The translations under genes and the position numbers were made by a program. Positions 4,391 through 32,702 of a DNA stretch of 34,661 nt are shown piece by piece. Source of the DNA: Bacillota bacterium (GTDB lineage Bacteria; Bacillota; Limnochordia; DUMW01); NCBI GenBank assembly GCA_012839765.1, contig DUMW01000064.1, positions 1-34,661 of the forward strand, given 5' to 3'. A model generated the notes under the pieces. It did no database searches. It was not told where the DNA came from and saw only the letters and a program-made list of their open reading frames with translations. Every line of letters starts with the position of its first letter. Positions within the stretch are counted from its first letter, which is position 1.

Positions 4391-6706
4391 ATGAACAAAG
4401 GGAAGTTGGTCTTGCTGACCATGGGCTTCGTACTGCTGATGACCGGCGTCCTTGGGGCCAGCGGACCCCTCGTGGTTGATTTTGACCACTATCAACCGGG
4501 CCTCGTCGGTGGGCAAGACGGTTGGACCTCGCGATACGGTCATGGAATGATTCAAAATACTGTAACCCCCGATGGAACGGGGTATGCGCTAGAAGTGCTC
4601 CTTCCCGCGGAGCTGACGAAGGCTTTCCCGGAGCTAATTGGGGCCAGGCAGGTGGAGATCACCTTTAAACTGCAGCTTTCGGATCGGGACTCCAAAGTGG
4701 TGTTCTATGCCCTAGACAGCGCCGGCCGGCGTGCGGTGCTATTCTTCCACGATGAAGGGTCCCGTTGGGGGCTGCAAAGTGGCAGCGATTGGGTCTTCGT
4801 TCCCAACTCCTTGTCGCCGGGCCTTTGGATCGACCTGCGGCTGGTGATCGACTATACGAAACGTACGGTTTCGGTATACCGGGGCAGTGGCGGTCAATGG
4901 ACTCCCCTGTGGACGGATCGGGCCTTTACCCACGGTGACGCGGAACATTTTGCGACCTTTGTCATTATCCGTCACCCAGAGCAGGGGAGCGATACTCCGG
5001 TGTACTTTGATCAGCTGCAGATTACGGCCATAGGAGGAGAAGAGATGAAGGACCAGGTATCCGTTACTACCTCCCGGCCCCGTTACAGTATCTTTCAACC
5101 CGACGAGGAGGTAACCCTGACCTTTCGGGTGGAGCGGCAGGCCTACGACCGGGCGGATCTGCTAGAGTGGGAAATCAAGGATTTTTTCGGATCCAGAGTG
5201 CTTTTTGGCACTCTGGATCTTCCCGCGGGATTAGAAATCTATGAAGAGTCCCTTGTCCTTCCTCGGTTGAGACCCGGGTACTATGAAATCCAGGCTACCG
5301 TTAAAGGCTCCAATTCCCGATTGCCCAAAATGGGCAGCAGGCCCGCGGGAATCGCCACCTTCGGGGTGCTGCCTGAGGTTGAGCCCCTGCGGCCTGTGCA
5401 TCGGGACGATTCTAGGTTTGGGATCCAGGGGACTAACTTTCTCGATACGGGAGTCTTCATGTTGGGCGATCCCTATGATCCTCTGTATCACCTCTTGGGG
5501 GTCCGCTGGGTGAATCATGCTAGAAGCTGGCGGCAGTTGGAACCGGAGTTTTCTGGACAATACGAACCGAAGCTCAATCGCTGGGAGTTCCTTTATCCCT
5601 CCTACGAGGCCCAGAACGAACTGTCTCTGCTAACGTGTATTGACGGGCTGCCCTACTGGGCCATTGCTTGGCCCGATCCTTCTACCGCACCGAAGAGCCC
5701 GGCGGAACTCACCCATCCCTTAAGTCAAGCCTACCCGCCGCTGGACTATGAACAATATAGTGATTTTCTCGCCAAGGTAGCCGCGGAAGACTATGTCCGC
5801 AGGCAAACCCATTTTGCTGACATGCGCCATGGGTATTACCAGGTGCATTGGGAGCCCGATTGGCACTGGAAGGGTACCGATGAGGAGTTCATTCAGATGT
5901 ATGCCAGTGCCTATGAGGGGTTGCACCGTGGAGATCCCGAGGCGGTGGTCATGGGACCGGGCTATGGTGTTCTGGATGTGGCGGTGGAGGAGCTGGCCCG
6001 TCTGCTTCCGGCAGGACTTAAGGATTACCTGGACGGCATCGCAGTCCACGGGTACTACTGGGGCCAGTTGCAACCGGAAAGCCAGCCCCCCGAGGAGGGT
6101 TTGATTGAAAACCTCAGGAAGCTACGCAGTCTGGTGGATACATACCTGGGGCCTGAGGCCAAAGTGTTTCAAACCGAATGGGGGTTGGATTATCGGACCA
6201 GTTATGATTTGTTGACCCCCGAGATTCTCGATCGCCAAGCGGCCTACAGTATTCGCGCCCATATCATCTTCCTCGGTGAGGGGATGGATATTACCTACCT
6301 GTTCTATACCGCAGATTATTCCGGAGAAAGCGGCTATGGACTATGCTTCAATCTAAGCATGGAAGAACACAACTTTGGCGCTACCGCCATCTCCCCTAAG
6401 CCGGTGGCCATGGCTGCTGCCACCATGACCCGGGTGCTGGAGGGCACCAAGACCATCGGTCCTCTGCCGTTGACCGATGGACTCTACGCTTACCTGTTTG
6501 CCAGGGGTGACCAGTACGTCTGCGCCGCCTGGTCGGTCAACGGTCCGCAAGAGGTGACGGTGAACACCGACGCCACAGTCGTCGAGGTCATTGATTTCAT
6601 GGGAGGCCGGAGCGTACACCAGTCCCCAACGGGAGAGTACTCCTTGGCCTTAGATTCGTATCCCCTATATGTATTGTCCGCTGCCCCGATCCAAATTCGG
6701 CCATAG
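4391..6706 (+). CDS. Large secreted clan-A-like glycoside hydrolase with N-terminal binding-like module
   Basis: This 771-residue protein has a signal peptide (cleavage near LGA|SG). Residues about 28-215 form a beta-rich module like that of the upstream frameshifted lipoprotein. Residues about 220-330 look Ig-like. From about residue 345 the sequence resembles GH39/GH5-type TIM barrels: VHWEPDWHW places Glu488 as candidate acid/base, VHGYYWG lies between, and FQTEWGLD places Glu596 as candidate nucleophile. The C-terminal 90 residues resemble the small beta domain that often follows such barrels. The family and substrate are not certain; family 39-like or an unclassified clan-A family fits best. 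It follows the lipoprotein by 17 bases and ends the first operon. Confidence 0.75.
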   Translation: MNKGKLVLLTMGFVLLMTGVLGASGPLVVDFDHYQPGLVGGQDGWTSRYGHGMIQNTVTPDGTGYALEVLLPAELTKAFPELIGARQVEITFKLQLSDRDSKVVFYALDSAGRRAVLFFHDEGSRWGLQSGSDWVFVPNSLSPGLWIDLRLVIDYTKRTVSVYRGSGGQWTPLWTDRAFTHGDAEHFATFVIIRHPEQGSDTPVYFDQLQITAIGGEEMKDQVSVTTSRPRYSIFQPDEEVTLTFRVERQAYDRADLLEWEIKDFFGSRVLFGTLDLPAGLEIYEESLVLPRLRPGYYEIQATVKGSNSRLPKMGSRPAGIATFGVLPEVEPLRPVHRDDSRFGIQGTNFLDTGVFMLGDPYDPLYHLLGVRWVNHARSWRQLEPEFSGQYEPKLNRWEFLYPSYEAQNELSLLTCIDGLPYWAIAWPDPSTAPKSPAELTHPLSQAYPPLDYEQYSDFLAKVAAEDYVRRQTHFADMRHGYYQVHWEPDWHWKGTDEEFIQMYASAYEGLHRGDPEAVVMGPGYGVLDVAVEELARLLPAGLKDYLDGIAVHGYYWGQLQPESQPPEEGLIENLRKLRSLVDTYLGPEAKVFQTEWGLDYRTSYDLLTPEILDRQAAYSIRAHIIFLGEGMDITYLFYTADYSGESGYGLCFNLSMEEHNFGATAISPKPVAMAAATMTRVLEGTKTIGPLPLTDGLYAYLFARGDQYVCAAWSVNGPQEVTVNTDATVVEVIDFMGGRSVHQSPTGEYSLALDSYPLYVLSAAPIQIRP

Positions 6707-7314: not shown

Positions 7315-7416
7315 GGGAATTGTGGTGACGGTGCCTTCCACGATAGAAAGAATCCTGGCCTTCACATAGATTTCGTTAGGTGAAACACAATCAAGAAGAA
7401 GGGCAAGGTGAAGAAC

Positions 7417-10400
7417 ATGTTCACGGAACAGGACATAAAAAAGATTGAAAAGCGTTGCCAGTGGTTGAAGCATTGGTTCTATGAACCGGTGATGGACCTG
7501 GAAGTGGTCATGGCACCTACCAAAGAACATATTCGCCATTTACAGATCGACCATCTCCAGTTTGTTCCGATCAGTCCTGGTACCCCTTGGGGGGAAGAAT
7601 GGGAGAGCGCCTGGTTCAAGAGCACATATGAGTTCAAGGAAGCACCGGGGGAGAAGCTCTTCCTGCAGGTGGAGACCGGAGGAGAATCCATTGTCTATAT
7701 CGACGGGAAAGCTAGCGCTGCCATCGATAGGGAACATCACGAGATTCCTTTGTCCGCTGAAGAACTGGCCCCGGGGAAGCATACGGTCTTGATCGAATCC
7801 TACGCGGGACACCTGATCCCCAAGGTCAATGCCGTGCCCGTCCAGTTGGCGGATAACCAATGGACCCGACCGGTGTACAGACATTGCCGGTTGGTGAGAC
7901 GTAACGATGTGGTTTGGCATCTGTACTTTGATCTTGTCACCCTCTTTGAGGTGGCGAAGGAACTGCCCAAGGACAGCCTGCGGCGGGCCCGGATTTTGGA
8001 TACGCTAAATGATGTGATCGACAGCATCACCTGGGATACCAGCGATGTAAAGCTGCAGAGGGCGCAGTTTGCGGAAGCTCGTAAGCAGCTTGCTCCCTTG
8101 CTCAGCTCCCAGAACTCACCCACCACACCTACTTTGCATATGATGGGCCATGCCCATATTGACATCGCCTGGCTTTGGCCCCTAGCGGAGACCATCCGCA
8201 AGTGTGGTCGTACCTTTGCGACCCAGCTGCGGATTATGGAGGAGTACCCCAAGTACATCTTCCTCCAAAGCCAGCCCCAGGCCTATGAATACGCGGAGAA
8301 GTACTATCCGGAGATTTTTGAGCGGATCAAAAAGGCCATTGCCGCGGGGAAATGGGAAGCCAACGGTGGTATGTGGGTGGAGGCCGACACCAACGTGCCC
8401 AGCACCGAGTCTCTAATTCGTCAATTCCTCGTGGGAGGACAGTACTTCCAGGAGAAGCTGGGCGTACGGTCCGATACCCTCTGGTTACCGGACGTTTTCG
8501 GTTACAGTGGGAACCTACCCCAGATCATTAAAGGGTGCGGTATCGACTATTTCATTACCTCGAAAATCGGTTGGAACCAGACGAACCGGTTCCCCTATGA
8601 CCTTTTTAAGTGGGAAGGGATCGATGGCACCACCATCCTGTCCCATTATATTAAGCTTAATTACAATGGTTCCATTAACCCCAGTTCCCTGTGGGCCCAC
8701 TGGCGGGCTTTCCAACCCAAGGAGCTTTCGGATACCATGGTGCATCCGGTGGGCTTTGGTGACGGCGGCGGTGGCATGACCATGGAGAACATGGAGTTTG
8801 CCAATCGGGTGGTGGATCTGGAGGGTTGCCCCAAGGCCAGGTTCGGTACCGTCAGCGATCTCATGAAGAAACTGGCGAAAAACCAAGACAGGTATCCCAG
8901 CTGGCGAGGTGAGCTTTATCTGGAGCTGCACCGGGGTACCCTTACCAGTCAGGCCTGGACCAAACGCAACAACCGAAAGATCGAGTTTTTGCTGCGGGAA
9001 ACGGAGATGCTGGCCACGGTGGCCTATCTGCTTACGGGCCACTACCCGGGGCGGGAGTTTACAGAACTTTGGAAGCCGGTGCTCACCAACCATTTCCATG
9101 ATATCCTTCCCGGTTCCTCCATTGAGCGGGTCTATGAGGATTGCGACCGCATCTACACCGATGTGGCCACGAAGGCTTTAGAACTACGGCAACGGGCCAA
9201 AGAGGATATCTATAGCCAGTTGGGTAAGGTCGCCACCGGCAGAAAACAGCTGGTGCTCCTGAACACCCTCAATTGGGATCGGCAGGATCCCGTCTCCATT
9301 CCTGTGGGATCTGTGGATCCGGACCGGAACCGCATTGGCCAGTGTGTGGTGAACGATGTGGCTTTGCCGGCCGATGGGCCAGTCCATGTGGTGGACCGAG
9401 AGGGTAATCCTGTGCCTAGCCAGTGGAGTCCTGAGCGATTGGTCTTTAAACCGGATGTGGCGGCCACGGGACTGCGGGCCTATTACCTGCAGCCGGGACC
9501 GTGTCCGGTGCAACCGGAGAATCCTGTGTCGGTGCGGGTGGAAAAGGACATTGCCTACCTGGAAAACCATCTGATCAAGGTCCAGGTGGACCAGAGCGGT
9601 CAACTACTTTCCGTATATGATAAAGAGGCCCAGCGGGAAGTGCTGCCCCAAGGCAAGCGGGGCAACGTGGTGCTTCTGGCCGAGGACCTGCCTCTGTATT
9701 GGGATGCCTGGGATGTGGACCGGTTCTATCGGGCTGCGGTGGAGGAAGTGACCGGCGGTACCCTGGAAGTGGTAGAGGAAGGACCTCTCCAGGTCCGGGT
9801 GCGGGTTACCCGCGACTTCGGCGCCGGTTCCAAGTGGGTACAGGACATTGTACTCCATGGGGACAGCAAGCGCATTGACTTCGAGACCAAGGTGGATTGG
9901 CATGAAGTCCATCGCCTGTTGAAGGTAGCCTTCCCTGTGGATGTGAATAGCCGGGAGGTCAACTACGAGATCCAAAACGGGTACATTACCCGTCCCAGCC
10001 ATGATAACACCTCCTGGGATCAGGCCCGCTTCGAGGTCTGTGGCCACAAGTGGTGCGATCTCGCGGAAACCGGCTATGGCGCCGCCTTACTCAATGATTG
10101 CAAGTATGGCCATGAGGCCATTGGCAACGAGCTGCGGTTGACTTTGCTAAAGTCCGCCTATGGCCCGGATTTGAATGCGGATCAAGGAGTGCAGGTGTTC
10201 ACCTACTCCTTCCTGCCCCATGTGGGGAACTTGCATGAGGCCGGTGTGGTACAGGAAGCCCACGCGCTTAACGTGCCCTATGGCGTGGAAATTCTAGACG
10301 ACCAACAGCTGAATCTGTCCAGCCAGCAGTTGCTTCGGATTGAGGGCGGCCAGGTGTTCCTCCATGCGGTGAAGAAAGCGGAGAAATCCCTCGGTGTGGT

Positions 10401-10584
10401 CATCCGTTTCGGTGAGCTGGTGGGACAGCGCAGCCGTGTCACCCTCACCCTGCCTGCGGCGGCGAAACGGGTCGCCGAGACAAACCTGGTGGAGGAGAAC
10501 CCGGTGGTTATTGCCATCAATGCCCAGCGGGTGGAGCTTGAGCTGAAGCCTTTTGAGATCAAGACGCTGTTGGTGGAGCTTTAG
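7417..10584 (+). CDS. GH38 alpha-mannosidase
   Basis: This full-length GH38 enzyme of about 1055 residues hydrolyses alpha-mannosidic linkages using a bound zinc ion. GHAHIDIAWLWP gives the zinc ligands His247 and Asp249. WLPDVFGYS places the nucleophile at Asp359. NHFHDILPGSSI supplies the later zinc-binding histidine. Domain order is the usual one: an N-terminal beta domain (about residues 1-230) with GHA at the barrel start, the catalytic alpha/beta barrel, the helical middle domain and C-terminal beta-sandwiches (about 620-1055). No signal peptide is visible, so it probably acts in the cytoplasm on imported mannose-containing oligosaccharides. ATG 7417 is chosen (AAGGTG 6 bases upstream); GTG 7408 is an alternative. 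The next gene starts 17 bases after its stop. Confidence 0.95.
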   Translation: MFTEQDIKKIEKRCQWLKHWFYEPVMDLEVVMAPTKEHIRHLQIDHLQFVPISPGTPWGEEWESAWFKSTYEFKEAPGEKLFLQVETGGESIVYIDGKASAAIDREHHEIPLSAEELAPGKHTVLIESYAGHLIPKVNAVPVQLADNQWTRPVYRHCRLVRRNDVVWHLYFDLVTLFEVAKELPKDSLRRARILDTLNDVIDSITWDTSDVKLQRAQFAEARKQLAPLLSSQNSPTTPTLHMMGHAHIDIAWLWPLAETIRKCGRTFATQLRIMEEYPKYIFLQSQPQAYEYAEKYYPEIFERIKKAIAAGKWEANGGMWVEADTNVPSTESLIRQFLVGGQYFQEKLGVRSDTLWLPDVFGYSGNLPQIIKGCGIDYFITSKIGWNQTNRFPYDLFKWEGIDGTTILSHYIKLNYNGSINPSSLWAHWRAFQPKELSDTMVHPVGFGDGGGGMTMENMEFANRVVDLEGCPKARFGTVSDLMKKLAKNQDRYPSWRGELYLELHRGTLTSQAWTKRNNRKIEFLLRETEMLATVAYLLTGHYPGREFTELWKPVLTNHFHDILPGSSIERVYEDCDRIYTDVATKALELRQRAKEDIYSQLGKVATGRKQLVLLNTLNWDRQDPVSIPVGSVDPDRNRIGQCVVNDVALPADGPVHVVDREGNPVPSQWSPERLVFKPDVAATGLRAYYLQPGPCPVQPENPVSVRVEKDIAYLENHLIKVQVDQSGQLLSVYDKEAQREVLPQGKRGNVVLLAEDLPLYWDAWDVDRFYRAAVEEVTGGTLEVVEEGPLQVRVRVTRDFGAGSKWVQDIVLHGDSKRIDFETKVDWHEVHRLLKVAFPVDVNSREVNYEIQNGYITRPSHDNTSWDQARFEVCGHKWCDLAETGYGAALLNDCKYGHEAIGNELRLTLLKSAYGPDLNADQGVQVFTYSFLPHVGNLHEAGVVQEAHALNVPYGVEILDDQQLNLSSQQLLRIEGGQVFLHAVKKAEKSLGVVIRFGELVGQRSRVTLTLPAAAKRVAETNLVEENPVVIAINAQRVELELKPFEIKTLLVEL

Positions 10585-19275: not shown

Positions 19276-20523
19276 ATGAAGCGCTTGGCTGTTCTGTTGC
19301 TGGTATGGATGGCTTTTTTCGGTTTTGGTGTCCATGCCCAAGGAGTGCTGAGAATGGCGGGGTTTGGTCCTCCGCCGACGGCGCAGATTGAGAGATTTAC
19401 TGAGCAGACGGGAATCGCGGTTGAGTATGAATGGGTATCCGGCAGTTACAATTTCATGGAAAAGGTTGTGGTATGGACCATCGCAGGGACGCTCCCCGAT
19501 GTCCTGGCCATTCCCTATTGGGGTTTGCCCCAAATGGCCACCCAGGGTTCTTTGCGGCCCCTCGATGATTTGATGGAGCAGGACGTCGAGTTTCGCGATG
19601 GTTTCCTACCTCAAGGGATGGAGAGTTTTCGGTGGGAGGGGCAGCTTTACGGTGTGCCGTGGGTTTTGGCCCAGCAAACCATTCTTTTTGATCGTAGTCT
19701 CTTTCTTGAGGCAGGAATCCCCACCCCCTACGATCTAATTGCCCAGGATCAGTGGTCTATGGAGAACCTTATTCTGGCGGCCCGTAAGCTGACAGACCCC
19801 GTGCCCGATGGCAGTGGTTTCAACACCATTGGGCTATTCACCCGTACAGACCAAATGTCCTATTACGCCCCCCTAATCTGGGCCCTAGGCGGAGACATCC
19901 TGGCCAATGATGGTCGTACCCTGTTGTTGCGCCAACAATCCTCCCAAGACGCGGTTGTCCGCTTGGCGGAGTTGTTCACGGAACGGATCTTCTTGTCCAA
20001 TTCTGTCCGCGGGGAATACGGCTTGGATTATATGGAGGTGTTGACCCAGCGGGATGTGGGAATGCGGGCTTTTGGGGTCTATCTGCTGCAGGACATCAAA
20101 AACGCAAATCCGATGCTCAGTGAAAGTATTGATATTGCGCCCTATCCAGCCTACGACGGTGTTGGGACGAACGGGATCGATCCCGGTGCCATCGGGATTT
20201 CCAGTACCACGGAACAGCCAGAGGTAGCCTGGCAGTTTCTCAAGTGTGCTCTGGCGGATCCGGTGTTAGAGCCTGGATTGCCGGCGGTTCGGCAGCATTT
20301 TGACGTCTGGGTGGCTTATATGGAGGATCACTTTGGTGTCAGTGCAGCCCGGTATTTGCAGGTGGCTGGGGACTCTTTGCGTTTGAGTCCGCGGGCGGTC
20401 AACCCCGACGTGGAACAGGCGATCTGTCTCCCCTTACAAGAAGCTTTGCTAGGGCGCAGGACCATTTCCCAGGTCTTGGATCGGATCGAGCTGGAGTTAG
20501 GGTTTTTGCTTGAGGTTCAGTAA
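19276..20523 (+). CDS. Secreted extracellular solute-binding protein (sugar type), paralog A
   Basis: This 415-residue protein has a signal peptide with a probable SPase I site at VHA|QG, and no lipobox cysteine. The early segments RFTEQTGIAVEYEWV and GTLPDVLAIPYWGL are shared almost word for word with the binding proteins at 26794 and 28242, so the three are paralogs. It is expected to bind an oligosaccharide outside the cytoplasmic membrane. ATG 19276 is preceded by GGGAGGA at a good distance. It is the first gene of a long operon of secreted glycan-related proteins. No permease or ATPase accompanies it. Confidence 0.88.
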   Translation: MKRLAVLLLVWMAFFGFGVHAQGVLRMAGFGPPPTAQIERFTEQTGIAVEYEWVSGSYNFMEKVVVWTIAGTLPDVLAIPYWGLPQMATQGSLRPLDDLMEQDVEFRDGFLPQGMESFRWEGQLYGVPWVLAQQTILFDRSLFLEAGIPTPYDLIAQDQWSMENLILAARKLTDPVPDGSGFNTIGLFTRTDQMSYYAPLIWALGGDILANDGRTLLLRQQSSQDAVVRLAELFTERIFLSNSVRGEYGLDYMEVLTQRDVGMRAFGVYLLQDIKNANPMLSESIDIAPYPAYDGVGTNGIDPGAIGISSTTEQPEVAWQFLKCALADPVLEPGLPAVRQHFDVWVAYMEDHFGVSAARYLQVAGDSLRLSPRAVNPDVEQAICLPLQEALLGRRTISQVLDRIELELGFLLEVQ

Positions 20524-20617
20524 GTCAAAGCATTTTTACATTTGCAAGGTGCGACACTCTTGATGTGTGTTGCTGGCTAGGTTTAGGGCTCTTAAGACAA
20601 AGATGGGAGTGTGGAAG

Positions 20618-21589
20618 ATGCAGAGTACTTTTGTGTTTCAAGGCAATGATCGTTGGCCCACCTGTCATGCAGGGACCATCTGCGAACTAAAGACCGGTGA
20701 GCTGGTGGCGGCCTGGTTTGCTGGAGAAAGGGAATCCTCCGATGATTCCGGGATTCTTTTGAGCAAATGGACCGGTGATCAGTGGACGCCTCCCCGGGTG
20801 GTGGTCAATGTACATAAGCGGGCTGCTGGTAATCCGAAGCTGTTTATCGGTCCCGACGGTGTCCTCTGGCTGATTGCCCCCGTCAATTATGGGGCCTGGT
20901 GCGAGGGGGGTACTTGGCTATTTGTGAAGCGCTCCTTTGACCATGGAGAAACCTGGACCGATCTGGAGCTCTTGCTACAGCGACCGGGCATCCTGGGGAA
21001 GAACAAGCCGATTCAGCTACGCAGTGGTGTATGGTTGATTCCGGTGGAGGACGAAGTGGCTAGCACTCCCATGTTCTTGCGTTCGGAGGACCAAGGGGTA
21101 ACCTGGGAATTGGTACCGGTGGAAAACGACGACTGGGTGATCCAACCTACTGTGGTGGAACTGGCCGATGGCACTTTGCTGGCCTATTGTCGCTCGGGGT
21201 CCGGTGCGATCTACGAAACCCGGTCTAAGGATGAAGGACGTACGTGGACCAAGACCCAAAGGACCACCCTGCCCAATAATAACAGTGGCATTGATATGGT
21301 CCGCTTACGGTCGGGGCTTTTGGTTCTGGTCCTAAACTGGGTGGAGCCCCGGGACGATGACAAGTGGATCAAAGGAGTTCGCTGGGGTCGGCGTACACCT
21401 TTAAACCTTGCGGTATCTCCTGATGAGGGCAAGACCTGGCTTCCGGGCCCGGTCCTTGAGGATGGACCGGGTGAGTACAGTTATCCGGCGATTATCCAAG
21501 GCAGTGATGGGTTGATCCATGTGATTTACACCCATCGGCGGACTGCTATGAAGCATGTGGTGTTGGAGGAGGACGAATTGCTGGATTGA
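20618..21589 (+). CDS. Sialidase-like protein with four Asp-box repeats (predicted neuraminidase family)
   Basis: This 323-residue protein is a six-bladed beta-propeller of the sialidase superfamily. The start (WPTCHAGTICELKTGELVAAWF) matches the predicted-neuraminidase family seen next to glycan-use genes. Four Asp boxes of the S-x-D-x-G-x-T-W type are visible: SFDHGETW, SEDQGVTW, SKDEGRTW and SPDEGKTW. Family members are usually called exo-sialidases, but many act on other sugar acids or are untested. There is no signal peptide, so it appears cytoplasmic. ATG 20618 is chosen because GGGAG lies about 9 bases upstream; the frame is open further left without a good ribosome site. Confidence 0.85.
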   Translation: MQSTFVFQGNDRWPTCHAGTICELKTGELVAAWFAGERESSDDSGILLSKWTGDQWTPPRVVVNVHKRAAGNPKLFIGPDGVLWLIAPVNYGAWCEGGTWLFVKRSFDHGETWTDLELLLQRPGILGKNKPIQLRSGVWLIPVEDEVASTPMFLRSEDQGVTWELVPVENDDWVIQPTVVELADGTLLAYCRSGSGAIYETRSKDEGRTWTKTQRTTLPNNNSGIDMVRLRSGLLVLVLNWVEPRDDDKWIKGVRWGRRTPLNLAVSPDEGKTWLPGPVLEDGPGEYSYPAIIQGSDGLIHVIYTHRRTAMKHVVLEEDELLD

Positions 21590-21676: not shown

Positions 21677-22390
21677 GTGCGCAAAGCTCTTTGTCTTGTT
21701 CTTGCCCCATTATTGCTGGTGGGCTGTCTTGTTGCACCGGCACCGGATCCTGGCGAGACCCATGACGGTGTCATCTACCTAGAGACCTTCTCTGGGGCAC
21801 CCACAGAGTTTCTCCATGGCAAACAGCCAGACCAGGGGCGGGCTACATGGTTATCTATCATTACCCATACGGTACCTAGTTGGCGGGCCGATGGAACCCT
21901 GGCCAGTCCACCGTCGCGGCAGAACCGCAATGCTTTCCTTCCCTTTGTCCCCAAGGACGGCAGGATCTATACCCTTTCTTTGGAGGTGAATCCCACTTCC
22001 GGTGATGCCGCCGCCGAATTCTTTGCCCTCGGATTTGCCAAGGATCCATCGCCAGAACAGATTTTCGCCTCGCGGGATGTGATCATGGCTGGTCCGTGGT
22101 GGGCCCAGGCGTGGAACCGGGAACATGTGGCTGTTTCCTATGTGGGACCCGGAGACCAAGGCGGTGCCAACACTCCGTCCAAAGAAGGCTGGGTTGAGCT
22201 GAAGATTGTGTTAAACACCACCGAAGAGCAGTGGATAGCAGAATGGTTTTACGATGGTGAAAAGGTGAGGACTCACCAATACGCAACAAATCCAACGATT
22301 AATTATGTAGGATTTGGGGCTATGCGGTTTGCCGCGGGTGCAGTGCGGAATTTCCAGCTGGTGGGAGAGATACCAGCGAAGGACAAGTAA
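21677..22390 (+). CDS. Lipoprotein with a single secreted module (family A), unknown function
   Basis: This 237-residue protein has a lipoprotein leader ending LLLVGC. One module fills the mature part. It shares with the next two genes the segments IYLETFSG, NRNAFLPFVP, YTLSLEVNPT, GPWWAQAW and NPTINYVGFGAMR...VRNFQLVG. The beta-rich pattern and context suggest a concanavalin-like carbohydrate-binding fold, but I cannot name the family. GTG 21677 is chosen because AAGGAG is 10 bases upstream and the leader starts there; the longer frame from 21590 has an implausible start. It follows the sialidase-like gene by less than 100 bases and is probably co-transcribed. Confidence 0.75.
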   Translation: MRKALCLVLAPLLLVGCLVAPAPDPGETHDGVIYLETFSGAPTEFLHGKQPDQGRATWLSIITHTVPSWRADGTLASPPSRQNRNAFLPFVPKDGRIYTLSLEVNPTSGDAAAEFFALGFAKDPSPEQIFASRDVIMAGPWWAQAWNREHVAVSYVGPGDQGGANTPSKEGWVELKIVLNTTEEQWIAEWFYDGEKVRTHQYATNPTINYVGFGAMRFAAGAVRNFQLVGEIPAKDK

Positions 22391-22475
22391 AGACTAACTG
22401 GAATTGCACGAAATTTGTGGATACAGGCAACAAGGAGTTAGACTCCTAAATCATATTACTTGGGGAGGAATACCC

Positions 22476-23168
22476 ATGAAGAGACAGTTGAAAGTGTTTC
22501 TACTATTGGTAATATTCTTGGTTGCTGTACAGACGATGGTGTTTGCCCAAGTGACGATCCTTTACCAGGATTCCTTCTCGGGAAGTCCTGAGGAGTACCT
22601 GGCTGGTCGGGTTCCGGAGATCAGCTATACCGGCCAAGGTTGGATCAGTCCCCTTATTCCTGCGCTGGTGAACTGGCAGGCCGACGGAACTACGGAGCGG
22701 CCGGTGGATAATCACAATCGAAATGCTTTTCTACCCTTTGTCCCCGAGGCTGGGAAGGTGTACCGGCTGTCTTTGGAGGTCAATCCCACCGAGGGCAATG
22801 CTCCGGCCGAATGGTTCGGCGTGGGCTTTACTGCGGATTGTCCCCAGACTACCATCTTTGCCCACGATACAGTGGGAGCGGGTCCCTGGATTCTGCAGTC
22901 CTGGGATCGTTCTCTGCCGAGCAATACCTTTACGGGTCCGGGAACCGCAGGTGAAGCAAGGCACCCTGCGGCCTCGGGCTGGGTCAAGCTGGAGATCGTC
23001 CTGGATACAACCAGGGAGGATTGGCGCGCGGAGTGGTATTACAACGGTGAACTGGTGAGGACATACCTTTACTGGGGCAATCCTACCATCAATTACGTGG
23101 GTTTTGGTGCGATGCGCCAGGCAGCTGGTCAAGTTCGCAATTTCCTTTTAACGGTGGAGGAGCGGTAG
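22476..23168 (+). CDS. Secreted single-module protein (family A), unknown function
   Basis: This 230-residue protein has a signal peptide cleaved near VFA|QV and no lipobox cysteine. The mature part is one family-A module, nearly the same as the N-terminal module of the following large gene: NRNAFLPFVPE, YRLSLEVNPTEGNAPAEWFG, DTVGAGPW, LQSWDRSLP and NPTINYVGFGAMRQAAG are shared. ATG 22476 has GGGGAGGAA 5 bases upstream. Its place between the lipoprotein version and the enzyme-fused version suggests duplication of one binding module into three delivery forms: lipid-anchored, free and enzyme-fused. The ligand is unknown. Confidence 0.75.
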   Translation: MKRQLKVFLLLVIFLVAVQTMVFAQVTILYQDSFSGSPEEYLAGRVPEISYTGQGWISPLIPALVNWQADGTTERPVDNHNRNAFLPFVPEAGKVYRLSLEVNPTEGNAPAEWFGVGFTADCPQTTIFAHDTVGAGPWILQSWDRSLPSNTFTGPGTAGEARHPAASGWVKLEIVLDTTREDWRAEWYYNGELVRTYLYWGNPTINYVGFGAMRQAAGQVRNFLLTVEER

Positions 23169-23198
23169 ACCGTTGGGCTATTGCCCTGGGATCTACGA

Positions 23199-23222
23199 CC
23201 GGGCCCATTCCCTTGGGCCCGG
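23199..23222 (+). other. Very stable intra-operon hairpin
   Basis: CCGGGCCCA (23199-23207) pairs perfectly with TGGGCCCGG (23214-23222) around a 6-base loop. No T run follows, so it is unlikely to be a simple terminator. It sits between the free module gene and the large fusion gene and could stabilise the upstream mRNA or lower downstream expression. Confidence 0.5.
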
Positions 23223-23243
23223 GATACTATAAGGGAGCTGAGG

Positions 23244-26200
23244 ATGATGCGCTTATCATGGCAGGTTTTGCTATTGGGGGCAATACTAGTGGTTTTTGCG
23301 GGTGGAGCAGTGGCTCAGCAGGTCGAACCCCAGATTATCTACCTGGAAACCTTTTCCGGTGATGGTCTGCTGGATTTACAGGATCGGAGTCCGGACGTTA
23401 GCTTGACCGGTGCCCGATGGATTACCCCAGCCATCTCCGGCACACCCAACTGGAAGGCGGATGGTACCATCTCCAGGCCAGTATCCAATCAGAACAGGAA
23501 TGCCTTCTTGCCCTTTGTACCAGAGCAGGGCTGGGTTTACCGTCTTTCTTTGGAAGTGAACCCCACCGAAGGGAATGCGCCGGCAGAATGGTTCGGACTG
23601 GGATTCACCCAGGATTGCCTGGAAACCATCATCTTCTCTCACGATACCGTCGGTGCGGGGCCTTGGATGCTCCAGTCCTGGGATCGCAGTCTGCCGGGCA
23701 ATACCTTCAGTGGCCCTGGGGTTGTTGGTCAACAGAATCACTCCACTAGTGCTGGTTGGGTGAAGATGGAAGTGGTTTTGGATACCACCCAGGAGCAGTG
23801 GTCTGCGGAATGGTACTGCAATGATCAACTGGTAAGGACGTATACATACTTGAGGCAACCAACGATTAACTACGTGGGTTTTGGTGCTATGCGGCAAGCC
23901 GCCGGTGCTGTACGGAACTTTCAACTGGTGGGGATCCCCGCGGCGATGGACGCCAAAACAGTAGAAACGGAGGCTGGGCCGGAGGTACCGGTGACAGCAG
24001 ATCTCCCGCGGTTGGGCGGTCCGACCCCGCAGCCTAGATTCGTTGATGAGCCTATTCCCACGGAGCCTCGCCAGAAGGAGATTCCCTTGATTGTGCACCG
24101 CATGCCCTCGATGCCCACCAATGTGATTTCCCGGGCCGGTCGGTTCAACTACGCAGATGAGAGTCTACTTGAGGTGGAGGCAACCATTGAAGAAGAATTC
24201 GGCAGGATCGCGGAGTGCGGTGCCACCGCGGTGATGGTGGATCGGGCCTATGCCCAGTACGCGGAAGCTGCCACCAAGGCGGGGCTAAAGATTCTGTTGA
24301 TGATCAATGTGCAGCAGATTGTCCTGGGCAACTTTCAGATCCCCGAGACCCCGGAGGGGGTAGCTGATTATCTGATCCGGGAGCTTGAGAGTGTGAAAGC
24401 GGTTTGGGATGCTATGTACAAGAGGGACGGCAGGATTGTGGTCTGGGTGTATTCGGCACCCCGCTTTCCCGCAGAGTTCTATCGGGAAGTGTTGTCCATT
24501 GTCCGGGACGCAGGATACGACCCCTTTGTGCTTTATCATACCCAGTATCAACTGCAGAAGACCGAAAGCGAAGTGGCCAAGTATCTTGAAGTCTTTGATG
24601 GTGTTTTGATCTGGGCCAATAGTACCGAGGAAACCCGCCAGACGCTGGACTTGGTGATCCCTGCCCGGGACCAGATTTTGCGGGAAACCGGTGTCAGGAA
24701 AGCGGTGATGCTGACGGCTAAGCCGGGACATTGGCGGCCGGAGCGGGGCCTTGTTATTGATCCCCGTGGTACTGCAGAGTTTCGCCAGACGGTGGATTTC
24801 GTCTACAAGTATGACCTCGACGGTCTACACGTGGAAAGCTGGAATGACTTTAGTGAAAACCATCATATGCAGCCCACGGTAATGAAGTCCACAGTGCTGG
24901 CGGACCTGATGTACTATTATGGGCGGCTTGGCATGGGCGAGTTAGCTACCTTGCCGGAACCGGGTCTATACGTTAGCCATCGTAGAGAAATAGTTCTGGG
25001 TGAATACTTCCAATGCGAAGTAATGTATTTGCCCGTAGCAGCCCAAGGAACCAGGACCATCCGTCTGGTGGTGCGTCGGCAGGATGGGGAGGTTGTGTAT
25101 GCTTCGGAGCCATGGACCGTGGAGAATTTGGCCGCAGGGGTGAGGACCTTCAATATCCCCACTGCCACTTTGGGTCCTACGGATGTGTTGTTGCCAGCTG
25201 TGGAGGTTAACGGAGAAGAAATTGCCACCGCGAGTTTTTGCTTAGTGAGCTCCAGTCGGATTCAGCAGCCTTTCACCATGCACGTGGCATTGTCTCAGGT
25301 GCTCCGTCCTATCGAAGTGGAGTTCACCATCGACGGCTACGGACCAGGGGAGACCTTTACAAGTACTGCTCCCAGGGAAGCGGTGATCAAGGTAAGTACT
25401 GATCAGAAGCTGCAGCGCATCGAGATTTTGAAGAATTACCTGCCGGTTTTCAGTGCCGATTTCGATCGGGAGATGCAGGTGCGATCTGGGAACCAGGATT
25501 ACCAGGTGGTGAGGTTTTCTTGGAGCATGCCAGTTCCGGGGGATGAACAGTATTCCAACGATTTTACCAATGGTTCTATTCGCATAACAAATGGGCGGGC
25601 GATCAGTGCCTTTGAAGTGGCCAGAGCCCAATCTTGTCTAAAATGGGCAACCTATGCCCAGTGGCTATCTTACCGGGCGGCCAATGACGCGGTGGAGATG
25701 GTCTTTCTGGGGGATGAAAGGACCGTGTTCACGGTGGAGATTCCCCTCCAAGGGTTCTCGGTGGATGTGCCCTGGGCCGAGGTGGTAGAAAAAGGACGGA
25801 TCGAGTACTTGATCCATCCCTGGGCGCGACTGTTGGTGGAACGGATCCCAGGTCCCACGGGCAATCCGTGGTCCATTGGAGTGACGGATTACACCAAGAC
25901 GATTCTTTTACCCCAGTGGGATGATCAGGCCTGGAACGTGTATTACCTCCGTCTCATTACCGAAGACGGTGCCATCTACCGCAGCGCTCCCATTCAGGTG
26001 ACCCCCTATGACTTGAAGGAAACTGTCGATGCCTACATCTGGGATGTGGAAACTCAACAGCGTGTCCGCATCTCCGCCCCCAAAGCCCAGCTTTTAGACG
26101 TGACGTGGGATTTGGGAACCAATACCCGAATGATCCCTGATGTGCACGGTGTTGGGTTTGATCTGGAACTGGGAGGCCGTTTTGTGCGGGAGGGGAGGTA

Positions 26201-26738
26201 CAGCCCAAACCAGGTGCCCGTTGTCACCCACGACAGTGTCTTCGGTGCAGTCCTCGCCTTTGACGGTAACGACGTCTTGATGACCAATGCCCAACTGACA
26301 CCCCTAGGTTGTTGGGGTGTGGATCTTTGGATTAAGCCTACCAAGGTGGGTACTGGTTCCCAGCAGTACATTTTCCAACCCAATGAGACGTTGTTTCTAA
26401 CCCTGCAACCCGATGGCACCATCGGGGCCAGGTTTGGGGACCGTGCCGGGTTGATGTCTTTGCGCGGAACTACTATCCTGAAGGAACATGAGTGGTACCG
26501 GATCACCTTTGTATATGATCTGACCAAGGCGGTACTGATGGTGGACGGAAGGATTGAGGCTGTTGTACCGGTCCACGGTCTGCGGGAACGGATTACGGGT
26601 TTGACCAGTATCGGTGCCTATGTTCAGGATTCCGCCAGCCTGCAACCCGCTAGCCAGGGCTTCCATGGGTTCCTTGGTCCCATCAAGATTGTGACCAGTG
26701 CCCAAGAAATAGATGAACTGCTGCGTTTGGCCGATTAA
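23244..26738 (+). CDS. Large secreted protein: family-A module, GH71/GH99-like domain and LamG-like C-terminus
   Basis: This 1164-residue protein has a signal peptide (VAQ-type cleavage near residue 25). Residues about 28-230 are a family-A module like those of the two preceding genes. A linker rich in Pro and acidic residues follows. Residues about 265-560 resemble the GH71/GH99 TIM-barrel group: the segment HVESWNDFSENHHMQPT matches the WN-[ED]-x-x-E-x-x-x-x-EP signature, with Glu538 a candidate catalytic residue. Residues about 570-980 look like beta-sandwich domains, and about 985-1164 a LamG-like domain. The GH71/99 group cuts alpha-glucan or alpha-mannan linkages internally. ATG 23244 has AAGGGAG 6 bases upstream. 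It is the largest gene of its operon. Confidence 0.75.
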   Translation: MMRLSWQVLLLGAILVVFAGGAVAQQVEPQIIYLETFSGDGLLDLQDRSPDVSLTGARWITPAISGTPNWKADGTISRPVSNQNRNAFLPFVPEQGWVYRLSLEVNPTEGNAPAEWFGLGFTQDCLETIIFSHDTVGAGPWMLQSWDRSLPGNTFSGPGVVGQQNHSTSAGWVKMEVVLDTTQEQWSAEWYCNDQLVRTYTYLRQPTINYVGFGAMRQAAGAVRNFQLVGIPAAMDAKTVETEAGPEVPVTADLPRLGGPTPQPRFVDEPIPTEPRQKEIPLIVHRMPSMPTNVISRAGRFNYADESLLEVEATIEEEFGRIAECGATAVMVDRAYAQYAEAATKAGLKILLMINVQQIVLGNFQIPETPEGVADYLIRELESVKAVWDAMYKRDGRIVVWVYSAPRFPAEFYREVLSIVRDAGYDPFVLYHTQYQLQKTESEVAKYLEVFDGVLIWANSTEETRQTLDLVIPARDQILRETGVRKAVMLTAKPGHWRPERGLVIDPRGTAEFRQTVDFVYKYDLDGLHVESWNDFSENHHMQPTVMKSTVLADLMYYYGRLGMGELATLPEPGLYVSHRREIVLGEYFQCEVMYLPVAAQGTRTIRLVVRRQDGEVVYASEPWTVENLAAGVRTFNIPTATLGPTDVLLPAVEVNGEEIATASFCLVSSSRIQQPFTMHVALSQVLRPIEVEFTIDGYGPGETFTSTAPREAVIKVSTDQKLQRIEILKNYLPVFSADFDREMQVRSGNQDYQVVRFSWSMPVPGDEQYSNDFTNGSIRITNGRAISAFEVARAQSCLKWATYAQWLSYRAANDAVEMVFLGDERTVFTVEIPLQGFSVDVPWAEVVEKGRIEYLIHPWARLLVERIPGPTGNPWSIGVTDYTKTILLPQWDDQAWNVYYLRLITEDGAIYRSAPIQVTPYDLKETVDAYIWDVETQQRVRISAPKAQLLDVTWDLGTNTRMIPDVHGVGFDLELGGRFVREGRYSPNQVPVVTHDSVFGAVLAFDGNDVLMTNAQLTPLGCWGVDLWIKPTKVGTGSQQYIFQPNETLFLTLQPDGTIGARFGDRAGLMSLRGTTILKEHEWYRITFVYDLTKAVLMVDGRIEAVVPVHGLRERITGLTSIGAYVQDSASLQPASQGFHGFLGPIKIVTSAQEIDELLRLAD

Positions 26739-26793: not shown

Positions 26794-28038
26794 ATGATGT
26801 TGCGTAGGGTATTGTCTATCGTGGTAATCGTGCTGTGTCTTGCCAGCTCCTTCGGGACCAGTGCCAAGACACTGCGTATGGCCGCCTGGTTTGAGGAGCC
26901 CGCGGACCTCATTGAGGCCTTTGAAGAGGCGACCGGCATTACAGTGGAGTATACCTATGTACCGGATAGCCGTGCCTATCTGGAAAAGGTTACTCTGTGG
27001 GCCATCAGTGGTACGCTGCCCGATGTGCTGTATATTCCCTATTGGGGACTTTTTCCCATGACCGATGTGGGGGTGCTACATCCCCTCGATGGTTTTCTCT
27101 CGGAGGACTTTGAAGGGGATTTTCTTCCCCAAGGTATTCTCAGCTTTCAGCGGGACGGGAGACAGTTTGGGATGCCGTGGGAACTGAACCCGATGGTGAT
27201 CATCTATGACCAGCGGATCTTTGAGCGCTATGCTCTCGCTACTCCCGATGACTACGTTCGGAACGATGATTGGAATGCGGAATCCTTGGTGGAAAGTGCG
27301 CGGAAAACCACCAAGCTGACTCCGGACCGGACCAACTTCGAGACTATAGGGTTGGTTACGTGGTCAAACGCGATCAACAGGTTCACCTCTTTCATTTGGG
27401 TCTTTGGCGGCGATGTTCTTGCTGAGGACGGGGCCACTGTTCTCCTGGATCAACCTGGCTCCATTGCCGCTTTGGAACAGCTGGCTTCCCTTTTCCAGGA
27501 AGAACGGGTGTTCATGGCCACAGGACAACGCGGTAGATACGGTCTAGAATTCATGGAGATTCTGGCTGGGGATATAACCGCTATGCGCGGTGCGGACATT
27601 CCCTTGTTGAACAACATCCGGATGGAGAATTCGGACCTGGCCCGTAACGTAGGGGTGGTACCGATGCCCTTGGCTCCGGACGGAGCTCCCACCAGTGGGC
27701 TAATTGTTCATGGCATTGGGATCGCCGCTTCTTCTGAACAGAAGGAGGAGGCGTGGCAGTTCATTGAGTTTGCCATGAACAACGTAGCGCAGAATGCTTC
27801 CATCCCCGCAAGACAATCCCAAGTGGCGGACTGGATTGATTACATTTCCCGTGAATATGGTTTCAATGTGATGAATTACGTCCAGGGATTGGAAAAGAAC
27901 CTCCGCTTGCAGCCGAGAGCCATCAACGATCAAGTGGAGGCGATCCTGAACACCTACGTGGACCGCATACTCACCCAAGGTGTGCCAGTTGTAACCGCGG
28001 TGGAGAATGCCATTAGAGAGATCGGAGCCATACTGTAG
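26794..28038 (+). CDS. Secreted extracellular solute-binding protein (sugar type), paralog B
   Basis: This 414-residue binding protein has a signal peptide with a probable SPase I site at TSA|KT. It shares ITVEYTYVPDSRAYLEKV, SGTLPDVLYIPYWGL and VQ-type C-terminal segments with the proteins at 19276 and 28242; the closest by eye is 28242. It binds a sugar or oligosaccharide by family expectation. ATG 26794 follows GAAAGGAT. It ends the operon, followed by a terminator, so it is the second binding protein of one transcript. No transporter membrane subunit is nearby. Confidence 0.88.
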   Translation: MMLRRVLSIVVIVLCLASSFGTSAKTLRMAAWFEEPADLIEAFEEATGITVEYTYVPDSRAYLEKVTLWAISGTLPDVLYIPYWGLFPMTDVGVLHPLDGFLSEDFEGDFLPQGILSFQRDGRQFGMPWELNPMVIIYDQRIFERYALATPDDYVRNDDWNAESLVESARKTTKLTPDRTNFETIGLVTWSNAINRFTSFIWVFGGDVLAEDGATVLLDQPGSIAALEQLASLFQEERVFMATGQRGRYGLEFMEILAGDITAMRGADIPLLNNIRMENSDLARNVGVVPMPLAPDGAPTSGLIVHGIGIAASSEQKEEAWQFIEFAMNNVAQNASIPARQSQVADWIDYISREYGFNVMNYVQGLEKNLRLQPRAINDQVEAILNTYVDRILTQGVPVVTAVENAIREIGAIL

Positions 28039-28241: not shown

Positions 28242-29495
28242 ATGCGAAGAATGGAAAAAACGATGGTGTGCCTTGTGTTCATTGGTGTGCTTTTAATCGG
28301 CCAGGTGGCCGCAGCCAAGACTTTAACGATAGCCGGATGGTTCCCGGCGCCGGAGAAGTATATCGAAATGTTTGAAGAGCAGACGGGGATCGATGTGGAA
28401 TACATCTACGTTCCCGATAGCCGTGCCTATCTTGAGCGGGTGGTGCTGTGGGGTATTGGCGACACGTTGCCGGATGTTCTTTTCGTTCCCTATTGGGGCG
28501 TTAACTCCCTGGCCAGTCACGGTCTTTTGCGTCCCATCGATGATCTGCTAGCCGCGGATGAAGCGTATCTGTTTGACTTCCTCCCCCAGGGCTTGGAAGC
28601 CTTCCGACGGGACGGCGGCCTTTACGGCTTACCTTTCGAGCTGAATCCGGACGTGGTCATCTTCGACCCCCGTCCCTTTGAGGAAAGGGCCGTGCTCACC
28701 CCCAGTCAGCAGGTGAAGAACGGTACCTGGACTCCCCAGAGCCTGGTGGACAGTGCTCGCAAGCTTACGGAGCTGACCCCCGATGAATCCACCTATATTT
28801 CCATCGGTATGGTCACTTGGTCAGATCAGTTGAACCGACTGGCTCCCTATGTCTGGATGTTCGGTGGGGAACTGGTGAGTGAGACCGGAGAGGAATTCCT
28901 CATCGGCACGATTGAGACCAAGGAAGCCTTGGAAGAGATCGCTAGATATTTTCAAGAAAAAATCTTCCTGTCGGTGGCCTACCGTACCGCCTACAACCTT
29001 GATCATTGGGAGATCCTCGTGGGCAATCGCACCGGAATGCGCGGTTGTGATATTCCTCTGCTGGGAGATATTGCTTCCCAAAATCCCCAGTTGGCGGCGG
29101 TGGTTGGTGTAGTGCCCTATCCTATGGGCATTAACGGCGAGCCCACCACCGGTTTGACCATCCACGGTGTAGGTATTACCCCCACCAGTCAACAGGTGGA
29201 GGAAGCGTGGTCCTTCATTCGTATGATCCTCGATGTTCCCTCGGATGGGGCATCGATCCCAGTACGGCAATCCCAATTCGGTGACTGGATCCAACGGGTG
29301 GACACCGCTTTCCCCGGCATCGATGCACTGTCCTTGATGCAGCAGTTGAATGCCGGGATGCGCCTGGGACCTCGGATCCTCAGCCAGGATATGGAGTATG
29401 TCGTGCGGACATACATTCACCGGGCTATGATCGGGCGCATTTCCGTGGTCCAGGCTATCGAAAACGCCTTGGCCCAACTGAGTGCCCTGCAGTAA
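28242..29495 (+). CDS. Secreted extracellular solute-binding protein (sugar type), paralog C
   Basis: This 417-residue protein has a signal peptide with a probable SPase I site at AAA|KT and no lipobox cysteine. It shares the opening EQTGIDVEYIYVPDSRAYLE, the DTLPDVLFVPYWGV segment and VRQSQFGDWI near the end with the paralog at 26794, and is less similar to the one at 19276. It is expected to bind oligosaccharides outside the membrane. ATG 28242 follows GGGAGGG at a suitable distance. It opens the third SBP-led cassette and again has no adjacent permease or ATPase. Confidence 0.88.
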   Translation: MRRMEKTMVCLVFIGVLLIGQVAAAKTLTIAGWFPAPEKYIEMFEEQTGIDVEYIYVPDSRAYLERVVLWGIGDTLPDVLFVPYWGVNSLASHGLLRPIDDLLAADEAYLFDFLPQGLEAFRRDGGLYGLPFELNPDVVIFDPRPFEERAVLTPSQQVKNGTWTPQSLVDSARKLTELTPDESTYISIGMVTWSDQLNRLAPYVWMFGGELVSETGEEFLIGTIETKEALEEIARYFQEKIFLSVAYRTAYNLDHWEILVGNRTGMRGCDIPLLGDIASQNPQLAAVVGVVPYPMGINGEPTTGLTIHGVGITPTSQQVEEAWSFIRMILDVPSDGASIPVRQSQFGDWIQRVDTAFPGIDALSLMQQLNAGMRLGPRILSQDMEYVVRTYIHRAMIGRISVVQAIENALAQLSALQ

Positions 29496-30350: not shown

Positions 30351-32702
30351 ATGCGTTACAGACCGGCGAAAGGGGTATCGGGGTTGAATAGGGTGATGGT
30401 TGGTTTAGCGTTTACATTGTTGTTGGTGGGTGTAGTTTTTCCCCGTGGTCTTGCCGCCCAAGGGATTGAACCGGATATTGCGGCGGCAAGCAGTGACGTC
30501 TTTACGATTAGCAACTACTTCCGGTTTACACCGGCGGATCTTTCGGGATTCGGAGACCAGACGTTCATCCTCGGTGGCTTTGCCCATACCGCCGATGTTC
30601 AGGAAGTGGATGTGGCCTTTCGGTGGGTAAAAAGTACCGAAGGGTGGGTTCCCCTATGGAAGCTGCAGGTTGTGGCCCGAGGATGCTTGCCGGATAAGTA
30701 CCAGAACTACATGAAGGTGCAGGGGGAAGAACAGGTTATCGATCTTACGGTGGTGACGCCTAATCCCCAGGTGGACTACCGCGCGGATTGCGCCTTTGAC
30801 CTTACCCGAGGCCTGGCTTCCTTTGTCCTTGTGCGGTTGGACACCGGGGAGAAGGTTTACAGTTCTGTTTTTGAGTTGGAGGTCTTGCAGGAGGTGGCCT
30901 TCCCGCGCTGGGACGATCTGCCTGCGGGAAAGGTGAGTCTCAGTTCCACCTACGAGACGGCGGGGCTGCCCTTCTTGTTGAAGAAGGACTTGGTGTACCG
31001 GGTGGTGCGGGAGGAAGCGACGCGCTATACAATCCTGGGCCGAGAACCCATCTTTGTGGATGATCCGGTGGGGCTGTATGTCGATTGGCCGCAGCATCCC
31101 GTCGCGGGCAACATTGACGTAGAGCTTGTACACAATGGAGAAATCCGGCAAAGGGATAGTCTGGTTTGGGAGGAAAGGGATTTCTTACCTTTCGAGCTAC
31201 CCATCGGTTCTTCCCAGGTGGTGGTGGCAGCTTCCTTCGATGGGTATAGGGAGGTGTTGGGTGTAACGCCGATGATGGTGTACGCCGGTGAAGTAAAGGT
31301 GCAAATTGGGCGTTTGGAGGTCCCCGGGCAGTGGACGGTACCCAGTCAGGTGAGCTGGCGGTTTGCCGAGGGAAACCAGGAAAGCATCACAGGGCAGGTC
31401 CGGTTACTGTCTGATGTGGAACTGACTGGAGTAAACTTACAACTGCAACTGCGGGACGCCAAAGGTAAAGTGGTGAGGACCGTCTTTGAGCGGCCGGTGG
31501 ACTTGGTGGCCGGCGAGCCTGCCATTTTCGACTTTAACCTTTCAGGTTTGGAACCAGGGGAATCGTTGGAGCTGGTTCCGGTGCTTGGAAGTTCCTCCAT
31601 TAATGTGATGTATCGGACCACGGTGTGGCTAGAGACTGCTCCCGCCTATTTCAGCCTGCCAAGGCCCGAGCGGGGACGGGTGGATCTTCCCTTTGTTGAA
31701 GGGGTGGAGCACTATCTGATCTATGAGGGCAGTGCACCCGATTCCCGGTTCAATCACGTGCCGCGAATTCTCTATCATGGGGGGGTCTTCTACGCCTGTT
31801 GGAACACCCATCCCCGGGATGAGGATGCGCCCGGTATGTATCCCTTAGCGGCCATTTCTAGGGACGGCAAGAACTGGAGCAGTGCTTTTGAGCTTTTCCC
31901 CGCTTTGGGACCGGTGGGCTGGGGACAAAGCAGTGGGGTATGGGTGACGATCCAACCGGTGGACTACGCGGAAAGCTGGGTCGTGGTGGATGATGTGGTA
32001 TATAGTACTGCCACCATCTATGAGTGGGTGGATGGCGGGCGCAATAAACTGGGGGTTATTGCCCGGTCCGTCGGTCCGGACGGATCCTTGGGTCCCATCT
32101 TCTGGCTTTTGGGGGACTCCATCAACCAGCAGAAACTGTCCATGACCTTCCCCGATGCCCGGGATCCCGAGGTGGCTCCCTTGGTGCAGAAACTACAAAA
32201 GAACCTGCTTCGCATGTGGAGTTCCAAGGAATATACCGCCGCGGACGGGCATCGTTTGACAGAGCTCACCTACTATACCAGGCCCGACGGGGTAATGACC
32301 ACCCTGGGCCGGGATCTAAACTGGTCCTATGGATTGCTCTATGCCTGTCACAGCTATGACGGGGGAGTCACTTGGACACCAATGTTGCGGACAAATATTC
32401 CCGATTGTCCCTCGATGAGCAACGCCGGGACTCTGCCCGACGGTGGGGTTTACCTGATTCACAATCCGGTTTATCTCCAGCGGGATCCGTTGATCATCAG
32501 TCTATCTAAGGATGGAGTGAATTTTGACAGGGCAGCGGTAATCCGTAGTAACGCGCCGCCGAGCCGTTATACCGGCATTGGCAAAGGGGATGGGTATCAG
32601 TACCCAGCTTCGGTTATTGCCGAGGGAGCCCTTTGGGTTATCCATTCCATCAACAAGGAGGACATTGCCATCAGCCGGATTCCCTTGGAGTCTCTGCAGT
32701 GA
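30351..32702 (+). CDS. Large secreted sialidase-superfamily (Asp-box) protein
   Basis: This 783-residue protein has a signal peptide (cleavage near LAA|QG). The N-terminal half (about residues 40-440) is beta-rich, probably several Ig-like domains with no family I can name. From about residue 460 it resembles a sialidase-type propeller, with Asp-box-like segments SRDGKNWSS, SYDGGVTWTP and SKDGVNFDR. The catalytic Arg triad of true sialidases cannot be assigned, so hydrolase, lyase or pure binding roles are possible. It begins 3 bases after the LamG gene stop, so translation is probably coupled. ATG 30351 has a weak ribosome site; TTG 30384 with AAAGGGG upstream is a real alternative. Confidence 0.7.
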   Translation: MRYRPAKGVSGLNRVMVGLAFTLLLVGVVFPRGLAAQGIEPDIAAASSDVFTISNYFRFTPADLSGFGDQTFILGGFAHTADVQEVDVAFRWVKSTEGWVPLWKLQVVARGCLPDKYQNYMKVQGEEQVIDLTVVTPNPQVDYRADCAFDLTRGLASFVLVRLDTGEKVYSSVFELEVLQEVAFPRWDDLPAGKVSLSSTYETAGLPFLLKKDLVYRVVREEATRYTILGREPIFVDDPVGLYVDWPQHPVAGNIDVELVHNGEIRQRDSLVWEERDFLPFELPIGSSQVVVAASFDGYREVLGVTPMMVYAGEVKVQIGRLEVPGQWTVPSQVSWRFAEGNQESITGQVRLLSDVELTGVNLQLQLRDAKGKVVRTVFERPVDLVAGEPAIFDFNLSGLEPGESLELVPVLGSSSINVMYRTTVWLETAPAYFSLPRPERGRVDLPFVEGVEHYLIYEGSAPDSRFNHVPRILYHGGVFYACWNTHPRDEDAPGMYPLAAISRDGKNWSSAFELFPALGPVGWGQSSGVWVTIQPVDYAESWVVVDDVVYSTATIYEWVDGGRNKLGVIARSVGPDGSLGPIFWLLGDSINQQKLSMTFPDARDPEVAPLVQKLQKNLLRMWSSKEYTAADGHRLTELTYYTRPDGVMTTLGRDLNWSYGLLYACHSYDGGVTWTPMLRTNIPDCPSMSNAGTLPDGGVYLIHNPVYLQRDPLIISLSKDGVNFDRAAVIRSNAPPSRYTGIGKGDGYQYPASVIAEGALWVIHSINKEDIAISRIPLESLQ

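Follow-up and report, generated by a model that had tools for sequence, protein, structure and literature searches.

Three consecutive genes of the analysed stretch of a Limnochordia contig (34,661 nucleotides, hereafter the window) share a module of about 205 residues that none of the searched family libraries names. We think it rather probable that the module is an unnamed family of the concanavalin A (ConA)-like lectin/glucanase superfamily, as its predicted fold suggests, and that it serves as a non-catalytic, extracellular glycan-targeting module. On this account, with glycan binding presumed from lectin-like fold neighbours and enzyme fusions, it would have been acquired from a PVC-type donor long ago and then duplicated in tandem.

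Three genes share one module

The first-pass annotation had described one module delivered as a lipoprotein, a free secreted protein and an enzyme domain, and the open reading frames, export signals and fusion are as it described (Table 1). The interval it assigned, 21677-23930, spans all three modules but omits the remainder of the enzyme, which extends to 26738. Each gene has a ribosome-binding site upstream of its start codon: AGGAG before the GTG at 21677, GGGGAGG before the ATG at 22476 and GGGAG before the ATG at 23244. Gene 1 has the basic N-terminus and hydrophobic core of a bacterial lipoprotein, followed by ...LLLVGC ending in Cys17 (lipobox [LVI][ASTVI][GAS]C). The gene 2 product has an ordinary signal peptide, cleaved at about VFA/QV, after which about 205 residues follow, and that of gene 3 is cleaved at about AVA/QQ. 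The spacer separating genes 2 and 3 holds an inverted repeat which, lacking a T-run, is not a canonical terminator; it is perhaps a processing or attenuation hairpin.

Table 1. Coordinates of the module genes, their domains and other features in the window
Feature	Position	Strand	Remarks
Gene 1, lipoprotein	21677-22390	+	237 aa, little beyond the module; lipobox LLVGC, Cys17
Module copy of the lipoprotein	21758-22363	+	Earliest-branching of the three copies
Gene 2, free secreted protein	22476-23168	+	230 aa; signal peptide and module
Module copy of the free secreted protein	22551-23159	+	
GC-rich inverted repeat in the spacer after gene 2	23199-23222	+	No T-run; intergenic fold z -2.0
Gene 3, multidomain enzyme, secreted	23244-26738	+	1164 aa; module after the signal peptide, then GH71/GH99-like barrel, middle region and LamG
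Module copy at the enzyme N-terminus	23325-23936	+	Sister to the free secreted copy, support 98/89
GH71/GH99-like TIM-barrel region	24039-25000 (end approximate)	+	Contains WNDFSENHH near 24840-24866
LamG (Laminin_G_3) domain at the enzyme C-terminus	26271-26582	+	Pfam E 3.9e-8
Sugar-type ABC solute-binding proteins	1275-2570, 19276-20523, 26794-28038, 28242-29495		Four, two adjacent

The free and enzyme copies of the module are 67% identical, and either is 51-53% identical to the lipoprotein copy. The free/lipoprotein pair aligns with 221.7 bits, while the best of 500 shuffles reached 7.7. The shared blocks quoted in the first-pass annotation were correct apart from two details: VNPTEGNAPAEWFG is present in copies 2 and 3 only, where the lipoprotein has VNPTSGDAAAEFFA instead, and NPTINYVGFGAMR is replaced by QPTINYVGFGAMR in copy 3. 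In the tree, the three copies form one clade with 100/100 support, from which the lipoprotein copy branches first. Values of dN between copies range from 0.27 to 0.48 and synonymous sites are near saturation, indicating old paralogues under purifying selection. The genome (2.56 Mb, 96% complete) contains exactly three copies.

The module lies outside named sequence families

The first-pass annotation could not assign the module to a named family, and searches of Pfam, NCBIfam and PDB sequences bear this out. At E ≤ 1, neither Pfam nor NCBIfam matches genes 1 and 2 or the module part of gene 3. Across 39 members (the three window copies and 36 relatives), nothing better than E 0.011 was found in these libraries, and each weak match was confined to a single member. 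When a profile of the 39 members was searched against all PDB sequences, the best match, to the bean lectin arcelin-5A, had an E of 0.19, and the best PDB profile matches of the module, at E 0.06-0.19 and with bean lectins on top, are weak. These values, together with the lack of a Pfam match, place the module outside the legume lectin family at the level of sequence and profile. None of the 39 members matches Laminin_G_3 (PF13385) through the module itself, and hhalign against a LamG alignment returned a probability of 0.7% (E 0.08). No named CBM family was matched by any of the 39 members, as judged by Pfam, NCBIfam and PDB sequences, and the literature searched gave no account of a module of this kind. 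By sequence, the module therefore falls outside named families.

An extracellular domain that recurs in Planctomycetota and Verrucomicrobiota thus has neither name nor model in Pfam and NCBIfam; with a name, many PEP-CTERM and multidomain proteins now called "hypothetical" could be annotated. The module is new in a restricted sense: it is a widespread PVC-bacterial domain left unnamed by curated libraries, and the fold superfamily around it is both large and old.

The predicted fold is a ConA-like beta-sandwich

The structure prediction that the first-pass annotation had proposed returned a lectin-type ConA-like beta-sandwich. The AlphaFold2 model, built from a nine-row alignment (A4) that also provided the profile for searches of PVC genomes, is an all-beta sandwich with a pLDDT of 84.5 and a pTM of 0.87, in which residues 129-136 are unreliable. 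It replaced an initial, poor model from three sequences (pLDDT 51).

Foldseek aligned the model with 244 PDB chains at E ≤ 1e-3, and the best 50 of these 244 are nearly all ConA-like. The neighbours include peanut lectin (2pel, E 1.3e-6), a legume-lectin domain of M. jannaschii (7elv) and FRIL, the lectin domains of Emp46/47 and ERGIC-53, calreticulin, and the sialidases BT_1020 and GH181. Enzymes of the same fold class, namely a GH16 endo-1,3-beta-glucanase (3dgt, TMq 0.60) and glucuronan lyase (2zzj), are also among them, as is YesU (1oq1). TMq values over the query are moderate (0.42-0.60) and indicate a remote relationship within one fold class. Among viral predicted structures, the best matches include phage tail proteins and proteins annotated as "concanavalin A-like". 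We conclude that the module, as modelled, is predicted to belong to the ConA-like lectin/glucanase superfamily at the level of fold.

Relatives occur in Planctomycetota and Verrucomicrobiota

Exact-motif scans of genomes and viral contigs, built from the three window copies, detected no relatives, and tblastn found none in plasmids. By themselves these negatives would point, wrongly, to an orphan module. A degenerate pattern for the hairpin, LDTTx3Wx2EW, occurs in 23 genome stretches, six of which encode full-length relatives according to a profile search (53-115 bits). These six belong to Sedimentisphaerales, Phycisphaerae, Phycisphaeraceae and, in three cases, Verrucomicrobiales. The A4 profile detected full-length relatives in 13 of 241 Verrucomicrobiota and 5 of 246 Planctomycetota genomes, counts that include two centre genomes already known as carriers.

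The search was negative closer to home. The A3 profile across 73 genomes of the class and the A3 and A4 profiles across 299 genomes of the phylum recovered only the window's own copies (0 of 72 and 0 of 298 other genomes), apart from one weak chance match. Two weak matches from the phylum and class searches (L004 and L005) were rejected as only their signal-peptide end aligned, and a third weak match (L009) as it lies antisense to other genes.

Tandem copies also occur in relatives: one genome (G798) has three within about 4 kb, two others (G704 and G730) have two each, and a fourth (G692) has two modules inside one gene. The arrays of G798 and G704 hold mutually closest copies in the tree, indicating that arrays are partly conserved. 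Stand-alone secreted module proteins with PEP-CTERM tails are common among the relatives. Fusions combine the module with a weak GH29 alpha-L-fucosidase match and F5/8C, with a sulfatase followed by two modules, with PA14/GLEYA/cadherin, with F5/8C, or with LamG. A sulfatase protein with two module copies (L096:31-3699, G402:C188) also bears InlB B-like repeats. A Verrucomicrobiales MAG contains an 18,544-codon open frame with one module copy (L023/L042, around 160923 of G363:C57, JARGNI010000001.1), which encodes an extremely large adhesin-like protein.

The enzyme part of gene 3 has a similar distribution of relatives. Its barrel has no direct Pfam match (PF03659/PF16317). The GH71/99-like assignment of the first-pass annotation gains support from two-step homology, through relatives that pass Pfam cut-offs and share a motif. 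The window enzyme matches three of the nine scanned relatives (L120, L128 and L129) at E 1e-13 to 5e-10; these three exceed the Pfam GH71 cut-off, and L128 and L129 also exceed that of GH99. Its WNDFSENHH motif aligns with WN[DE][FY]xE[NH]T of the relatives. LamG matches occur in all nine, most above cut-off. Relatives of the enzyme were found in 27 of 241 Verrucomicrobiota genomes, and none elsewhere in the class, in plasmids or in 246 Planctomycetota genomes, the last of these searches having been run without a positive control. No fusion to a GH71/99-like enzyme occurs among the module relatives examined.

The occurrence of module and enzyme relatives in PVC bacteria and their absence from the sampled class suggest transfer. 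Composition rejects a recent event: the contig correlates at 0.966 with the rest of the genome's contigs, the module region does not stand out, and both look native. Judging from the patchy distribution, a single ancient acquisition from a Planctomycetota/Verrucomicrobiota-type (PVC-type) donor is probable, with later amelioration and tandem duplication. The tree rows nearest to the window clade are from Planctomycetota, with support (81/82) that is not strong. Absence from the class may instead reflect loss in relatives rather than transfer.

Proposed function and alternatives

The module would be displayed on the membrane by gene 1, released in soluble form by gene 2 and, in gene 3, placed ahead of a GH71/GH99-like glycosidase that already bore LamG. 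Membrane, secretome and enzyme could thus recognise the same or a related glycan, within a cluster of genes for glycan use. The lectin-like fold neighbours, the fusions to glycosidases and sulfatases and the glycan-use context of the window all argue for such a targeting role; against it, enzymes and purely structural domains likewise occur in the ConA-like superfamily. In its arrangement, as a discrete and presumably non-catalytic domain on a carbohydrate-active enzyme, the module is a candidate CBM in the functional sense, here with a GH71/99-like enzyme and elsewhere with GH29-like and sulfatase proteins. A more specific version of this proposal is tentative: the module could represent a new carbohydrate-binding family across PVC bacteria, with a ConA-like fold and a sugar site unlike those of legume lectins and galectins, and with one putative specificity in three delivery formats directed at one glycan. 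At the level of sequence conservation, no legume-type metal or sugar residues were recognised.

The window offers a plausible setting for glycan targeting. A borderline GH29-like gene, a GH39-like gene that stays below cut-off, a GH38 alpha-mannosidase gene and a BNR sialidase-like gene, at 262-1248, 4391-6706, 7408-10584 and 20567-21589, give the contig a glycoprotein- or mannan-degrading flavour. Downstream, between 29583 and 34241, three LamG genes surround a protein (30351-32702) with BT_1020-like propeller and BNR matches.

A different reading, which we regard as less likely, is that the module serves structure or adhesion outside the cell in a general way (surface layer, matrix or protein-protein contacts), has no specific sugar ligand and is fused to the enzyme incidentally. 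Most of the conserved residues (W31, G184, F9, F93, G92) are hydrophobic or glycine and thus probably structural, and the relatives include many small PEP-CTERM proteins and segments of giant cadherin/VCBS-like proteins. Carbohydrate genes are also not significantly enriched beside module genes. Among 20 large neighbours, eight are carbohydrate enzymes, sulfatases, esterases or beta-helix proteins, while 20 random large open reading frames from largely the same genomes gave 4-5 (Fisher p 0.3-0.5). Adjacency therefore adds little and fusions weigh more, and it is the recurrence of fusions to glycosidases and sulfatases, along with the lectin-like fold neighbours, that speaks against a purely structural module. 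Here, moreover, the module is N-terminal to a glycosidase-like enzyme in a glycan-use cluster.

The stand-alone lipoprotein and soluble forms sit between genes for solute-binding proteins, an arrangement that would also suit a SusE/F-like role, in which a substrate-capturing surface lipoprotein and a soluble glycan shuttle feed the ABC solute-binding proteins of the cluster instead of targeting an enzyme. We consider this improbable, given that the third copy is enzyme-fused and that no ABC permease was recognised among the Pfam-scanned window genes. A diverged catalytic domain of GH16-, PL- or 3-keto-disaccharide-hydrolase-like type, to which the structural matches to 3dgt and 2zzj and a weak PF06439 match (E 0.011) in one of the 39 members could point, is slightly less probable still, as neither an acidic pair nor an ExDxxE-type motif is conserved in the module and D152 is the sole acidic residue conserved in more than 90% of members. 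From these missing acidic residues we infer that the module is non-catalytic.

Glycan targeting thus remains our preferred reading, and the window supplies material for its study. The gene 2 protein is a natural stand-alone form of the module that can be expressed directly for a ligand search. Comparing the three paralogues can show cleanly whether it was the specificity or the delivery format that changed once the gene had been duplicated.

Comparison with known systems

Like the window genes, the stand-alone proteins of Verrucomicrobiota and Planctomycetota carry the full-length module, mostly 20-35% identical to the window copies, but they end in a PEP-CTERM tail, which is absent from the window genes. 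Legume-lectin and other ConA-like folds (2pel, 7elv, Emp46/47, ERGIC-53) share the predicted beta-sandwich, the size and the secreted or luminal setting, whereas the module is 7-13% identical to them in the listed structural alignments and has no significant sequence-profile match. YesU, a galectin-like protein of Bacillus subtilis, is alike in fold (TMq up to 0.56) without a sequence match to the module. LamG (Laminin_G_3, PF13385) belongs to the same broad fold class and is frequent in the same proteins and gene clusters as the module, and in a weak profile alignment the LDTT...W...NG hairpin of the module falls near the WYHVA...LYLDG of LamG.
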